22,826 nucleotides of DNA from a virus, in IMG/VR virus record IMGVR_UViG_3300025669_000203, positions 1 to 22,826 of that record, one strand, 5' to 3'. Positions within the stretch are counted from its first letter, which is position 1; each line of letters opens with the position of its first letter. This document shows positions 14,503-22,826 of the stretch, piece by piece. The notes under the pieces were generated by a model, which made no database searches, was not told where the DNA came from, and was given only the letters and a program-made list of their open reading frames with translations. Position numbers and translations under genes: made by a program.

Positions 14503-15855
14503 TTATAAGCCATCTTTCATTGTTGAAAGCATACTCTTTAATACTTCTGGTTCACTTTTACTGTCGTTAAGAAAGTCAATAGAACCCAGCCACTTGTCTT
14601 CGTCAAAACCGTGCATTGATTCTACCTGATACAATTTATAGAAATACTTCTTCAGCAGTTCACACTCTGGCTTATCAAGTCCAATCTCACCAACTATGGC
14701 CCAGAACTGTCTGTTGAATTTCGCCTGTTCATCCGTGAATGTCTCTTTCTCCGGTACTGCATTAAAGGGGTCTTCAATAAAAGCCATGGCCTCATCAAAT
14801 GTAAGTTCAGACATTTTTTCAACACCAAGTCCAGACATGTAGGTTTTGAGGTAATCTTTATGTTCTTCATCTCTTGCCTGAATCGCATTGATAGACTTAA
14901 CCTGTAATGATTTGATTCCTGCGGTCATTACATCTTTACCATTTAGCTTGATCTTCTGTGTCAGCTTGCGCGGTACTTGCGCGGTACTTGCGCGGTGCTT
15001 GCTTGGTTCTTGCTTGACGACTGGTTCCTCTGTGGATTCTTCACTCGCACTGAAGGTTGTTGCTTTGTCATCTTCAGCTTCAACACTCATATCAATAACT
15101 GGTATTACTGGCTGTGAATCATCCATCTCTGGGTTGATGTCTTCCGGTTCTGGAAGTATAATGTTTTTTGAATGGTGTAACCCTAGGTTTCCATCCCTAA
15201 GTTTCTGATACTGGTCTTCGTTAATATTGGGATATAACCTAACAATATAGTGTGTTTGGGGTGCCGAATTGGCACTACCACCACCAGTCTTCTGTGGTGT
15301 CCTCTCTAGAAGTAGTGGTATTAATGCAAACCTGTTCTCACCAGTTATGCTTTGGATGTAATCACCAACATGTTTTATACCAGAATTTATTGAAACGGTT
15401 GAGTGAAAAGAGCCTGTGTCTAAAGAATAGCACCACCCCATGGATACCTTGGGCAACATGAAGAATAAAGACCCTCTTAAGCTACACTGACCAGAATCAA
15501 GTTTCTCACAAGGGCAGTTAATCTGTTCAATCAATCCATTATCCTGTTTCCTCCACGCTATCTCTCCGTCACCCTTACACTTGACACCAACCGAACCACC
15601 ATACCACTTGTATGACTGGGGGAAGACAGATTCTATCCGATTCACGGGGAACATTATTTGTAGCTGTTTTGGTTTATCCCCGAACACCTCTTGAACATCT
15701 TCAGGACAGACGAAATAGTCAGTCTCTTTTGGGTACTCTTTACCATTTTGATTTTTTACCTTAATACCCAACCTTATCTTACCCCGCCTCGGCATATATC
15801 TTATGTCGGATAATCCCCGTATTTTGGTGATTGATGGAAAACCTTGTCTATTCAT
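14503..15855 (-). CDS. phiC31-gp3-like recombination directionality factor (RDF) family protein with long C-terminal extension
   Basis: A 450-residue protein. Residues ~1-235 follow the pattern of the gp3-like family: PRRGKIRLGIKVKN, YPKETDYFVCPEDV, LQIMFPVNRIESVFPQSYKW, then a zinc-type Cys set (C93, C114, C116, C124) and MGWCYSLDTGSFHSTVSINS. In phiC31 the gp3 protein switches a serine integrase from integration to excision; members elsewhere may have other recombination roles. The length is nearly twice the phiC31 protein (~244 residues): residues ~240-300 are a low-complexity linker and ~300-450 a helical domain of unknown role. No integrase lies in the window. The start overlaps the upstream stop by 4 nt; RBS GGGAGATGAA. 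Confidence 0.7.
   Translation of the reverse strand: MNRQGFPSITKIRGLSDIRYMPRRGKIRLGIKVKNQNGKEYPKETDYFVCPEDVQEVFGDKPKQLQIMFPVNRIESVFPQSYKWYGGSVGVKCKGDGEIAWRKQDNGLIEQINCPCEKLDSGQCSLRGSLFFMLPKVSMGWCYSLDTGSFHSTVSINSGIKHVGDYIQSITGENRFALIPLLLERTPQKTGGGSANSAPQTHYIVRLYPNINEDQYQKLRDGNLGLHHSKNIILPEPEDINPEMDDSQPVIPVIDMSVEAEDDKATTFSASEESTEEPVVKQEPSKHRASTAQVPRKLTQKIKLNGKDVMTAGIKSLQVKSINAIQARDEEHKDYLKTYMSGLGVEKMSELTFDEAMAFIEDPFNAVPEKETFTDEQAKFNRQFWAIVGEIGLDKPECELLKKYFYKLYQVESMHGFDEDKWLGSIDFLNDSKSEPEVLKSMLSTMKDGL
14965..15002. repeat. 11-bp tandem repeat (three copies plus a partial copy)
   Basis: Unit CTTGCGCGGTA at 14965-14975 and 14976-14986, CTTGCGCGGTG at 14987-14997, then a partial CTTGC. It lies inside the low-complexity linker of the RDF-like protein. 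Because 11 is not a multiple of 3, each copy is read in a different frame, yet three copies add exactly 11 codons, so the reading frame is kept. Confidence 0.8.
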
Positions 15856-16886
15856 TTCATCTCCCTTAATTGTTGTTTTTTAAGTTTTTGGTGATATCTA
15901 ACATGGTCTCCGGTACATGAAAATAGCATAAGATTGGAAGTTTCATTATTGGTCTTATTTTCGTCAATATGATGAACAACTTCTTTTTTAGTTAATTCAC
16001 GCCCTATATGGTTAGCCATTATAACCCTGTGAAGAAACGTATCGTTGTCCGCACCCCTTTCTTTAAACACAACATATCCCATTGCCCTTACACTTAAACC
16101 CTTATATTTATGTCGTAGTTTATAGTAGTTTAAGCGACTTTCAGCACGTGTTCTAGTTTTTATTCCTGAATTTACAAAATAATTTGTAATAGAACGTTGT
16201 GAACACTTAAATAATTTTGCTATTTCTATTTTACTCCATCCATTTTCGTATAAACTTTTCCACTGTTCTTTAACTGATTGTTTAATACACTTACGACTCT
16301 TAATCTCTACACCAACAGATTTAAGGTGTTGCAAAACCGTAGTGTTTGAACACCCATATTTTGTACCTATTTCCATTGATGTTATTCCTTTTTCGTACAA
16401 CTTTTTCCATTTTTCTTTAATTGATGGTTTAACATACCTTTTGTTTTTGACATCAACCCCAACAGATTTAAGGTGTTGATTTACAGCATATTTTGAACAA
16501 CCGTATTGTACACCAATTTCTCTTGTTGTTAACCCTCCTTCATATAAACTTTTCCATTTTTCTTTAGTAGATGGTTTGATGTATATTCTGTTTTTAACCT
16601 CTGCGCCAACAGAATTAAGATAGCTACAAACAGTAGTAGGTGAACAACCATATTTTAAACCTATTTCTGTTGTGGTTAACCCTTTTTCATATAAACTTTT
16701 CCATGGTTCCTTAATCGATGGTTCAATATATGTTCTGTTTTTTAACTCTATGCCAATGGATTTGAGATACCTAGAAACAGAAGCATATGAGCATCCAGAA
16801 ATTTCACCAATCTCCCTTAACGTCAAACCTGATTCGTACATTTTCTTCCAATTTTTCTTGATTTTCAACGAGACTACTTTAACCAT
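15852..16886 (-). CDS. Protein with five tandem helix-turn-helix repeats and a C-terminal HNH domain
   Basis: A 344-residue protein from ATG 16886 (RBS GGGGGTTGGT; the frame extends to 16910 without an RBS). Residues ~8-252 are five copies of a ~49-residue unit, starting near 8, 58, 107, 156 and 205, with the consensus 'KEKWKSLYEKGLTTREIG-KYGCS--TV--HLKSVGVEVKNR-YIKPS'. Each unit is a complete helix-turn-helix; the most variable residues lie in the predicted recognition helix (YASVSR, PTTVCS, KYAVNQ, NTTVLQ, QRSITN). Residues ~284-335 are an HNH module (HRVIMANHIGRELTKK, VVHHIDENKTNN, GDHVRYH). A homing-type endonuclease with an extended modular DNA-binding array is likely. The gene overlaps the RDF-like gene by 4 nt. 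Confidence 0.85.
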   Translation of the reverse strand: MVKVVSLKIKKNWKKMYESGLTLREIGEISGCSYASVSRYLKSIGIELKNRTYIEPSIKEPWKSLYEKGLTTTEIGLKYGCSPTTVCSYLNSVGAEVKNRIYIKPSTKEKWKSLYEGGLTTREIGVQYGCSKYAVNQHLKSVGVDVKNKRYVKPSIKEKWKKLYEKGITSMEIGTKYGCSNTTVLQHLKSVGVEIKSRKCIKQSVKEQWKSLYENGWSKIEIAKLFKCSQRSITNYFVNSGIKTRTRAESRLNYYKLRHKYKGLSVRAMGYVVFKERGADNDTFLHRVIMANHIGRELTKKEVVHHIDENKTNNETSNLMLFSCTGDHVRYHQKLKKQQLREMK

Positions 16887-16998
16887 ACCAACCCCCAATA
16901 AAAAAGCCAAAAAAATCCACAGGAGGCTCGGATACCAGCTTTAACACTGATAACTCCCATAGATTTAATTGACTATTTTTATTACTAATTATTTTCAC
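16879..16998 (-). CDS. Possible 39-aa leader peptide overlapping the HTH-HNH gene start
   Basis: A GTG start at 16998 follows a consensus GGAGGACGTA RBS and opens a 39-residue frame (MKIISNKNSQLNLWELSVLK, then EPPVDFFGFFIGGWYG) that ends at 16879, overlapping the start of the HTH-HNH gene by 8 nt. The overlap and the strong RBS suggest translational coupling. GCTCGGA upstream of the RBS is complementary to TCCGAGC inside the ORF, so the RBS may be occluded by a stem. It is too short for family assignment; coding status is uncertain. Confidence 0.4.
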   Translation of the reverse strand: MKIISNKNSQLNLWELSVLKLVSEPPVDFFGFFIGGWYG

Positions 16999-17026: not shown

Positions 17027-17055
17027 AGCTTACACCGTTATTATTGTTTTGTCAA
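17027..17055 (-). promoter_or_regulatory. Promoter-like sequence upstream of the leader ORF and HTH-HNH gene
   Basis: On the minus strand TTGACA (17055-17050) is a perfect -35, followed by a 17-nt spacer and TAAGCT (17032-17027) as a weak -10. It matches the sequence at 11688-11660 at 21 of 29 positions, including AACAAT in the spacer and GGTGTA before the -10. The match and the intergenic location support a real promoter for the HTH-HNH gene. Confidence 0.5.
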
Positions 17056-17071
17056 GAAAAACTGTTTATCT

Positions 17072-17731
17072 TTATAATTTAACCTTGTTGATTGACTCTT
17101 TAAATGACTTGGCAGACTCTTTGCTTATTTCAAATGATTCACCACCGATTGTAATTGGGACTTTTCTTGATTCGACATACCACTCATCAACATTAAACAA
17201 CTCGTCAAATGTTATGTAGCCACTATTATCCCACACTACTCTTTGGAATTTGTCGTCTGTTTTGATTACATAAGAACTACAAATACCATATTTAATCTTT
17301 TCACCAAATTCTGCATGTTCCCATGCTTCTTTAAATTTCATTGTTTTCTCCTTGTTTTGCGGATATACGCAGGTTACTGTTTTGTTTGATCTGTTGTTAA
17401 CAATAAAATGTGTACAAAGTCTACACCCGTCACTACCCACACCATTTTGTGTACCGAAAGGGCACGATGTTGGGCAAAATAAACCATCATATTTGTACTC
17501 AATCTCATTACCCTCCACAATCTCCCAGTCACCATCGTTGAGACAAAAACTGTTAAATTCATCCCTAGCGTTCTTGATGCCATAATCGTTAATAAAGCTG
17601 AAGCCTCTTCCGTTGATTCTACCCACACCGCTTAGGTTAAACCCTAAAACACCATACCATTTACCCGCTGTCAGATAATCCACCAGCTTACCTTTAAAAC
17701 TTTTTATTCTTGCATAATATTGTGTCATCAT
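17072..17731 (-). CDS. Fusion protein: Cys-rich N-terminal part plus 88/89-aa module with an internal start
   Basis: A 219-residue frame, starting ATG 17731 (ATGA overlap with the nuclease gene; RBS AAGGAAGGTGGT). Residues 1-130 hold a beta-type start (MMTQYYARIKSFKGKLVDYL) and a metal-binding cluster (FCPTSCPFG, GCRLCTHF, VTCVYP). Residues 131-219 (MKFKEAWEHAEFGEKIKYG ... GESFEISKESAKSFKESINK) are paralogous to the first 88 residues of the gene at 20276-20965. The junction contains an intact RBS (AAGGAGAAAACA) and ATG at 17341, so a separate 89-aa protein is probably also made. The codon before it is CAA (17359-17357), one transition from TAA. Either a stop-loss fusion or a designed nested gene; function unknown. 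Confidence 0.75.
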   Translation of the reverse strand: MMTQYYARIKSFKGKLVDYLTAGKWYGVLGFNLSGVGRINGRGFSFINDYGIKNARDEFNSFCLNDGDWEIVEGNEIEYKYDGLFCPTSCPFGTQNGVGSDGCRLCTHFIVNNRSNKTVTCVYPQNKEKTMKFKEAWEHAEFGEKIKYGICSSYVIKTDDKFQRVVWDNSGYITFDELFNVDEWYVESRKVPITIGGESFEISKESAKSFKESINKVKL

Positions 17732-20275: not shown

Positions 20276-20965
20276 TCAACCAACCCTACCCTTGTTTAGC
20301 ACCATGTTCTCAGGATTGAAAGTAGCCTCGTAACTCGGATAATAGTCGTCGATATTTCTTGTCCCTACACGAACAACTACCAAGCCTGTTTGTGTATCAA
20401 TAATCTCCACAACATCGTCGGTTTCACCATATTCACCGTCTGTTTTATACACACAAACAACTTCAATTGGACTGAATGAGTTTTTAACGTCACGTTCAGA
20501 TACAACAAGCCCTTTCATACAAGACCTGTAGCCGCCTTCAGGGTCTTCTAGTGCCGTATAAACAATACCGTCTAGCCTAAAGTGTATTGCGTTACAGTCA
20601 ATAATGTCATTACAAAAATTTTTAGACTTTTCAACTCCAAAATCAACACCATCTAATACATGTTTTCCAACTAATTCTTTTAATTCCATAATTTTCTCCT
20701 GTAATTTCATCTTATTAAGCGATTCCTTGAATGATTTGGCTGATTCTTTGCTTATCTTGAAGGATTCACCGTTAAAGGTTACGTCGACCTTATCCTGTAA
20801 TACTTCCCAGTCGTTGCTCTCTAAACACCCCGCCTTATCTCCATTGTTGTATTTTAGGGGTTTTTTTGTTATTGAGTAGTGCTCCACGATTTCTCCGTTA
20901 ATATCTGCACGTCTACCTATTGTTTCACCAACTTTTGCTTTTGATAATGCTTCGTATGCTTTCAT
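20276..20965 (-). CDS. Fusion protein: 88-aa module plus 137-aa C-terminal part with an internal start
   Basis: A 229-residue frame from ATG 20965 (RBS TTAAGGAGAAAATT; the frame runs on to 21028 without an RBS). Residues 1-88 (MKAYEALSKAKVGETIGRRA ... GESFKISKESAKSFKESLNK MKL) are the paralogue of residues 131-219 of the 17072-17731 gene. Residues 93-229 (MELKELVGKHVLDGVDFG, RLDGIVYTALEDPEGGYRSC, NIDDYYPSYEATFNPENM) form a separate domain like other conserved phage proteins with a DDYYP-type C-terminus. The junction has RBS CAGGAGAAAATT and ATG at 20689; the codon there is CAG (20701-20699), one transition from TAG. Two products, a fusion and a free C-part, are probable. Confidence 0.75.
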   Translation of the reverse strand: MKAYEALSKAKVGETIGRRADINGEIVEHYSITKKPLKYNNGDKAGCLESNDWEVLQDKVDVTFNGESFKISKESAKSFKESLNKMKLQEKIMELKELVGKHVLDGVDFGVEKSKNFCNDIIDCNAIHFRLDGIVYTALEDPEGGYRSCMKGLVVSERDVKNSFSPIEVVCVYKTDGEYGETDDVVEIIDTQTGLVVVRVGTRNIDDYYPSYEATFNPENMVLNKGRVG

Positions 20966-21008
20966 AATTTTCTCCTTAAGATTTATAATACAGTTTGTTT
21001 GTATCTCT

Positions 21009-21050
21009 ATTATACCACATATTGACAAAAACTATCCATTTTATTTTTCT
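21009..21050 (-). promoter_or_regulatory. Promoter element 2: extended -10 promoter, near-identical to 7905-7946
   Basis: On the minus strand TGG-TATAAT (TATAAT at 21014-21009) is a perfect extended -10; a -35-like TGGATA lies 18 nt upstream. It matches 7905-7946 at 39 of 42 bases. The predicted start of transcription is ~21002, about 37 nt before the ATG at 20965, whose RBS it includes. The element overlaps the last two bases of the upstream gene, so it is probably an internal promoter of the block. Confidence 0.65.
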
Positions 21051-21434: not shown

Positions 21435-21581
21435 TTAAGTTGTTAGTTGGGAAGTCGGTTTATCTTCCCTTGCAACAGCCAGACCAAAACAAAACCCAAA
21501 ACAGGCAGCGTTAAATAATGATCCGTTAATCATAAATGGTACGTTCACTAATGCACATATTAAAATAATTACTAAGTCCAC
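21435..21581 (-). CDS. Small membrane protein (48 aa)
   Basis: Read from GTG 21581 because of an AATTAAGGAGAAAATC RBS; the longer ORF upstream overlaps the previous gene and has no RBS. The 48-residue protein starts MDLVIILICALVNVPFMING and continues with a second hydrophobic stretch (FNAACFGFCFGLAVA), then a polar tail. It has two helices with a short loop. Function unknown; typical of tiny membrane proteins in phage early regions. Confidence 0.55.
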   Translation of the reverse strand: MDLVIILICALVNVPFMINGSLFNAACFGFCFGLAVAREDKPTSQLTT

Positions 21582-21600
21582 GATTTTCTCCTTAATTGGT

Positions 21601-21762
21601 TTATTTAAAGTAAACAAGTAAATCTTTGATAGTCTTTTTTTCTGAGCTTGACAGTCCGATTGGTTTGACACCACCATCTGTTTCACTGGTAACCCCCACC
21701 CACTCTCTAACAGAGTTTTTGTATAGAAAGTACAGCCTATCCTTATACTTATAGAGTATCAT
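21601..21762 (-). CDS. Small hypothetical protein (53 aa)
   Basis: The open frame is 81 codons, but the start most likely lies at ATG 21762, where a GGTGAT RBS precedes it, giving 53 residues (MILYKYKDRLYFLYKNSVRE, then WVGVTSETDGGVKPIGLS). This start overlaps the upstream gene by 14 nt. The protein is basic and beta-type in the first half, polar in the second, and ends in a short helix (KKTIKDLLVYFK). Family not recognised; the start is uncertain. Confidence 0.5.
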   Translation of the reverse strand: MILYKYKDRLYFLYKNSVREWVGVTSETDGGVKPIGLSSSEKKTIKDLLVYFK

Positions 21763-22185: not shown

Positions 22186-22826
22186 TTATTTTATTACTAT
22201 ACCAGTTATTTCTTTAAAGATTTTAGCATCAAAGTTTGGCAATTTCTTAAAGCTGTTTTTTTCTTTTTCTGTAAGTTTCATATTTTTGCAGGCATCAATA
22301 AAGCTATATTCTTTGAGGTATCCTTCTTGACAATAAAATTCTGGGTGCTCGGTTTTTTCTTCATCGGTCATATCTGATTCATTAACCCACACTGTGAGAA
22401 TAAACTTTTTTTCTAAAACATTAAAAGCATCTGAGTTATACCAATTACTATAACTCCAATCTGAGTCTTTGTTGAAAAGTCTTAATTTTGGCTTGTTTGT
22501 GTTAAAAATTCCGCTGTTCCTGTCTCCGCTGTTCATGTCTCCGCTGTTCCTGTCTCCGCTGTTCATGTATCCGCTGTTCATGTATCCGCTGTTCATGTCT
22601 CCGCTGTTCCTGTATCCGCTGTTCCTGTCTCCGCTGTTCCTGTCTCCGCTGTTCATGTCTCCGCTGTTCCTGTCTCCGCTGTTCATGTCTCCGCTGTTCC
22701 TGTCTCCGCTGTTCCTGTCTCCACTGTTCCTGTGGCCAGTATTATTGGTGCCAGAATTACAAACAACTAAAACCTCTTGCCACGATAATTCTCTTAGTAT
22801 TTTTATTTTATCCGTACAGATTTTGC
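22186..22826 (-). CDS. NSGxx pentapeptide-repeat phage protein, 5' end outside window
   Basis: The frame is open to the right edge of the window, so the N-terminus is missing; an ATG at 22686 is only an internal Met inside the repeats. Visible parts: a leading stretch with LRELSWQEVLVVCNSG, then about fifteen 5-residue NSG-[DYI]-[RMF] repeats, then a C-terminal domain (KLRLFNKDSDWSYSNWYNSD; ESDMTDEEKTEHPEF; LPNFDAKIFKEITGI). The same combination, an N-x-G-x-x (Pentapeptide_2-like) array followed by a SDW...NSDA...MTDEEK...HPE domain, is common in phages and prophages. The pentapeptide array should form a beta-helix; the role is not established. Confidence 0.8.
   Translation of the reverse strand, partial: KICTDKIKILRELSWQEVLVVCNSGTNNTGHRNSGDRNSGDRNSGDMNSGDRNSGDMNSGDRNSGDRNSGYRNSGDMNSGYMNSGYMNSGDRNSGDMNSGDRNSGIFNTNKPKLRLFNKDSDWSYSNWYNSDAFNVLEKKFILTVWVNESDMTDEEKTEHPEFYCQEGYLKEYSFIDACKNMKLTEKEKNSFKKLPNFDAKIFKEITGIVIK
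22511..22735. repeat. 15-bp tandem repeat array (15 units) encoding the NSGxx repeats
   Basis: Fifteen consecutive 15-bp units (ccgctgttcctgtct type) fill the whole interval without a gap. They are almost identical. Differences in coding strand are nearly all G/T: GAC or TAC at one codon and AGG or ATG at the next, giving D/Y and R/M. The terminal unit at 22721-22735 is the most degenerate (AGT, CAC). Confidence 0.9.

Follow-up and report, generated by a model that had tools for sequence, protein, structure and literature searches.

We analysed a 22,826-bp IMG/VR virus record, a single metagenomic assembly that is called the window here. We observed that a 229-aa ORF on its minus strand joins an N-terminal module of 88 aa to a C-terminal part (C-part) of 137 aa, and that an intact AGGAG lies at the joint, 6 nt before an in-frame ATG at 20689, so that the ORF contains a second, internal start that is in frame and preceded by an RBS. 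The junction reads AAATTA-CAG-GAG-AAA-ATT-ATG on the minus strand. This confirms an earlier reading of the letters alone (the sequence-only reading), which had described a fusion of a repeated module across an RBS without giving the strand. The sequence AGGAGAAAATTATG is present at both 20965 and 20689. The promoter-like site upstream of the ORF is a pattern match, and the number of sites in the promoter scan as a whole did not exceed what chance would give. The coordinates are collected in Table 1.

Table 1 Features of the two module-bearing ORFs in the window
Feature	Coordinates	Strand	Details
Fused ORF, 229 aa	20276..20965	-	ATG 20965, TGA 20276
SD AAGGAG of fused ORF	20972..20977	-	6 nt before ATG 20965
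Promoter-like site TGGATA-18-TATAAT	21009..21038	-	upstream of fused ORF; TG before -10 (extended -10-like); pattern match only
N-terminal module, 88 aa	20702..20965	-	variable body (~aa 1-57) and conserved tail (~aa 58-88, DKVDVTFNGESFKISKESAKSFKESLNKMKL)
Junction codon CAG	20699..20701	-	C at 20701; equivalent codon TAG in L016, TAA in the 17072 copy
Internal SD AGGAG	20696..20700	-	overlaps the probable former stop codon; 6-nt spacer to ATG
Internal in-frame ATG	20687..20689	-	start codon of the ancestral downstream gene
C-part, 137 aa	20276..20689	-	autonomous, mainly beta domain by prediction, phrog_27926-like; without module in other phages
Second module-bearing ORF, 219 aa	17072..17731	-	module at C-terminus; stop TAA
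Module copy in second ORF	17072..17341	-	internal ATG 17341 to stop; SD AAGGAG 17353-17348
18-nt joint ATCCGCAAAACAAGGAGA	17347..17364	-	identical to 5' joint of the L016 module

We compared the module with its copy in the second ORF. Residues 51-88 of the module are 66% identical (25/38) to residues 182-219 of the 17731→17072 ORF, and the module bodies before the last ~38 residues are ~24% identical between the two window ORFs. The sequence-only reading had called all 88 residues a paralogue of the C-terminal part of the second ORF; the alignment supports this term strongly over the last ~38 residues and weakly upstream of these. This tail is the most conserved stretch of the module and forms a hairpin and a helix in a low-confidence model. 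Since its codon identity resembles that of ordinary orthologues, we rejected a recent exchange of the tail, and its conservation is consistent with selection on the peptide rather than with recent DNA exchange. The module model was too poor for a structure search (pLDDT 50.6), the two-row module alignment gave poor search patterns, and neither the module nor the C-part obtained a name from Pfam, NCBIfam or PDB sequence searches. No free-standing module gene was found; the module was seen only in fusions, in the window and in a related phage (L016). It was also not found in genome_contigs or in 398 genomes of the phylum of L028 (a bacterial MAG), a search that had no positive control and shows little.

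The C-part occurs more widely. An alignment of it with Sinorhizobium and Erythrobacter phage proteins was used as query and yielded ten IMG/VR loci, several of which represent a single virus, and one further homologue came from the bacterial MAG L028. Single-sequence scans with P0001, P0002, the C-part and the Cas4-like neighbour gave no matches. Homologues without this module were found in L005/L006, L007, L008-L010, L011, L012, L014/phiM phages, and L028. A start codon stands at the equivalent of ATG 20689 (MELKDLVG...) in L005, L007, L008 and L012, and the genes of L011, L014 and L028 start a few codons from it; L013 matches the C-terminal portion of the C-part only, and its start position is ambiguous. 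In L008 and L028 the stop of the upstream gene overlaps or abuts the SD of the C-part gene (GGGAGGTGA; GAATAAGGAGG), so that a stop placed on an SD is ordinary geometry. AlphaFold predicted a self-contained domain for 20689-20276, starting from the internal Met (pLDDT 88.8). Taken with the module-free homologues, this prediction indicates that the internal product would be an autonomous domain.

The C-part matched whole phage proteins in BFVD (phiM12 S5M7A7, E 2e-8; A0A2Z4QA72, E 3e-9) and belongs to phrog_27926 by profile (E 2e-5 to 3e-5, positions 5-137 of 188). It shares this family, which includes Sinorhizobium phage phiM12 S5M7A7, by both sequence and fold; in contrast to the C-part, the phage proteins of the family are not joined to the module and have a longer C-terminus. 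Foldseek/VIA searches against PDB gave no convincing match for the C-part. We conclude that the C-part is an ancestral separate gene. The origin of the fused ORF from separate genes was thus borne out for the C-part, which stands without the module in unrelated phages, while the module itself was never found alone. In an Erythrobacter phage, the C-part homologue (L003:1743-2333, +) carries a different N-terminal extension of ~64 aa, and to judge from this sequence the C-part domain may have undergone N-terminal fusion elsewhere too.

An exact degenerate pattern of the module tail identified L016, a related phage that has several genes in common with the window at 53-75%. A second match of the pattern, L015, was discarded as a chance match. 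The L016 module is the closest relative of the N-terminal module body, and it ends in AAATTA-TAG-GAGATGTT-ATG, with the stop overlapping the SD of the next gene, which differs from the C-part. Comparison of GTTAAATTATAGGAGATGTTATG in L016 with ATGAAATTACAGGAGAAAATTATG in the window shows one T/C difference across AAATTAYAGGAGA. Two further records, L017 and L018, are ~99.99% identical to L016 and represent the same virus; the TAG is seen in L016 alone, as the L018 record is cut short of the stop codon and the L017 record does not reach the tail. Both other module copies therefore have a stop at the junction codon (TAG in L016, TAA in the 17072 copy). These data suggest that the stop is probably ancestral and the CAG derived, and they support the stop-loss origin that the sequence-only reading had proposed for the fused ORF. 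No relative with the C-part and module as an unfused pair in the same order was found in the viral and genome collections.

L016 also carries a third module fusion (L016:11746-12441, +), in which a DNA methyltransferase precedes the module. The methyltransferase matches phrog_757 (E 3e-32, profile positions 15-161 of 247) and is cut mid-domain after FGHP, where intact relatives go on with CLWLKGLP.... Three assemblies cover this joint: L016, L017 (to L016 position 12253) and L018 (to 12381). At the 5' joint of the module, the 18 nt of ATCCGCAAAACAAGGAGA are identical in L016 and in the 17072 ORF and occur nowhere else in either sequence, and the upstream partners, the methyltransferase and the 17072 N-part, are unrelated. 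In sequence terms, the 17072/L016 joint looks like recombination that moved the module with its RBS, or that swapped the front partner, and not like stop loss in a partner. The sequence-only reading had traced both window joints to a lost stop, each through a CAR codon. For the 17072 ORF this did not hold, because its CAA sits in the 18-nt stretch shared with the truncated methyltransferase of L016 and does not stand in place of a lost partner stop; with the shared joint read as recombination, the presence of a CAR codon at both joints has no significance as a coincidence. A candidate homologue of the 17072 N-part, MT835630, was not convincing, and the original end of that partner was not located. 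On the opposite strand, a near-consensus promoter-like site (11/12) at 17049-17078 (+) points antisense into the 17072-17731 ORF.

Next, we assessed the strength of the internal start. Among 211 internal in-frame start-like codons, ATG 20689 ranks in the top 4% by anti-SD energy, and its value falls inside the range of the real gene starts of this phage. The mRNA around it is almost unstructured (-0.5 kcal/mol), weaker than at ~95% of the gene starts in the window. The internal site of the 17072 ORF, ATG 17341, is buried in structure (-10.9 kcal/mol). About 1.1 in-frame SD-ATG pairs would be expected anywhere in the window. A start and SD this strong exactly on the domain boundary appeared in 34 of 20,000 codon shuffles of the fused ORF, and the same coincidence arose in 12 of 20,000 for the 17072 ORF. 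The unlikely part is the coincidence of the SD-ATG with the domain boundary, not the presence of an SD-ATG per se.

We consider it likely that the fused ORF is a stop-loss fusion of two adjacent genes that retained an accessible internal start and so possibly yields two products. In the ancestral state, a small module gene would have stood next to a second gene, which encoded the autonomous beta domain of 137 aa. The TAG of the module would have overlapped the SD of the next gene (TTA-TAG-GAG...ATG), with the ATG in frame 12 nt downstream. A T→C transition at 20701 would then have changed TAG to CAG and so made the two frames continuous, keeping both SD and ATG; this single change suffices because the next ATG lies in frame at that distance. 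The sequences show directly that the ORF is uninterrupted, that its internal SD and ATG are intact, that module-free C-part homologues have their starts at or close to that ATG and that the other module copies carry stops; from this we infer the direction and the single-step nature of the mutation. Ribosomes starting at 20965 would make the 229-aa protein. Whether they also initiate at 20689, to give the 137-aa C-part alone, is an evenly balanced prospect on this analysis. Somewhat below that we place the reading in which only the full-length protein is made and the internal SD and ATG are a relic without translational use, which is compatible with the fusion itself. A recent fusion would retain these signals without selection, and the structured internal site of the 17072 ORF fits such a relic; however, at 20689 neither the SD nor the spacer nor the ATG has been disrupted, and the site is unusually open.

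Other origins of the joint appear less probable. Recombination at the shared RBS sequence AGGAGAAAATTATG could have placed the module before an existing C-part gene. The occurrence of this sequence at both starts is in keeping with such an event, as are the apparent mobility of the module's 5' joint, whose 18 nt lie behind two unrelated partners, and the other window fusion and the L016 fusion, which both point to recombination. However, the last module codons AAATTA and the AGGAGA that follows are colinear with L016 except for one base, which would not necessarily result from a crossover in the RBS, and we regard this origin as improbable. Less probable again, and by a clear distance, is an assembly or sequencing error at 20701 that hides a TAG between two genes that are still separate. 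One base of a metagenomic contig decides the matter, and both other module copies have a stop at this codon, but errors at a single unremarkable base are rare in the consensus of a deep assembly. The sequence-only reading had also raised readthrough of an ancestral stop or stop-codon reassignment. CAG is a Gln codon that differs from TAG by one transition, as a programmed readthrough or an ancestral TAG recoded as Gln would have it; against this, TAG terminates six ORFs in the window as well as the L016 module, and ARAGORN found no tRNA in the window. We give this explanation almost no credence.

Stop-loss fusion with a retained start resembles known arrangements; the type of event is basically known, and the novelty is modest. 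Among endolysins, phage genes that contain an in-frame internal start are a well-documented class: a screen predicted such a start in about half of the endolysins, and synthesis of both products was demonstrated for selected cases (PMC9430671). The two-polypeptide endolysins phi2638A (PMC12203907) and CTP1L (PMC4777826) are further cases. The two-product endolysins (PMC9430671; PMC12203907; PMC4777826) are like the fused ORF in having two in-frame overlapping ORFs with a common stop, the inner one with its own RBS and encoding a C-terminal autonomous domain. In contrast, the fused ORF is not an endolysin, its inner product is a predicted one, and its likely two-gene origin is still visible. 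In the domain mosaicism and composite genes described for phages (Smug et al. 2023, PMC10684548), one module is likewise common to otherwise unrelated proteins of related phages, whereas here the proteins are small and the joints cross a preserved RBS. The inferred ancestor is similar to unidirectional gene pairs with termination-reinitiation, in which the boundaries are short or overlap (PMC10666635), with serial genes, a 9-nt gap and the upstream stop on the downstream SD, but the fused ORF lacks the stop and its frames are continuous.

The locus preserves a probable phage gene fusion with the evidence in place: a relative has the stop, the window lacks it, and the earlier start signal is preserved. 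This arrangement suggests a possible origin of internal-start genes, in which a stop overlaps the SD of the next gene and one substitution produces the fusion and keeps the old product. In addition, the window and L016, which are related phages, together carry three fusions of a single small module, to three partners that are unrelated to one another. As a broader and rather doubtful proposal, the module might be a portable cassette, with its own RBS and stop and a conserved tail, that fuses repeatedly to unrelated phage proteins at gene ends and uses the RBS region as a recombination joint. The tail (ISKESAKSFKES) would then be a common element for docking or assembly, and two products would still be made from the fused genes.

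Several other features of the window were observed. The ORF at 15852-16910 (-) contains several tandem helix-turn-helix units (147-bp DNA repeat, 16243-16780), followed by an HNH_3 nuclease domain, and is possibly a homing endonuclease with repeated DNA-reading units. At 22186-22824 (-), a pentapeptide-like protein with ~15 near-perfect 15-bp repeats (NSGDR/NSGYR) is cut by the contig end. For the ORF at 21435-21686 (-), the listed GTG start is probably wrong; a small membrane protein seems instead to begin at TTAAGGAGAAAATC-GTG 21581, upstream of which the frame stays open for a stretch. Finally, a gene for a Gp3-like (recombination directionality factor-like) protein contains an 11-bp tandem repeat of 4.5 copies at 14965-15013, with a unit length that is not a multiple of three.
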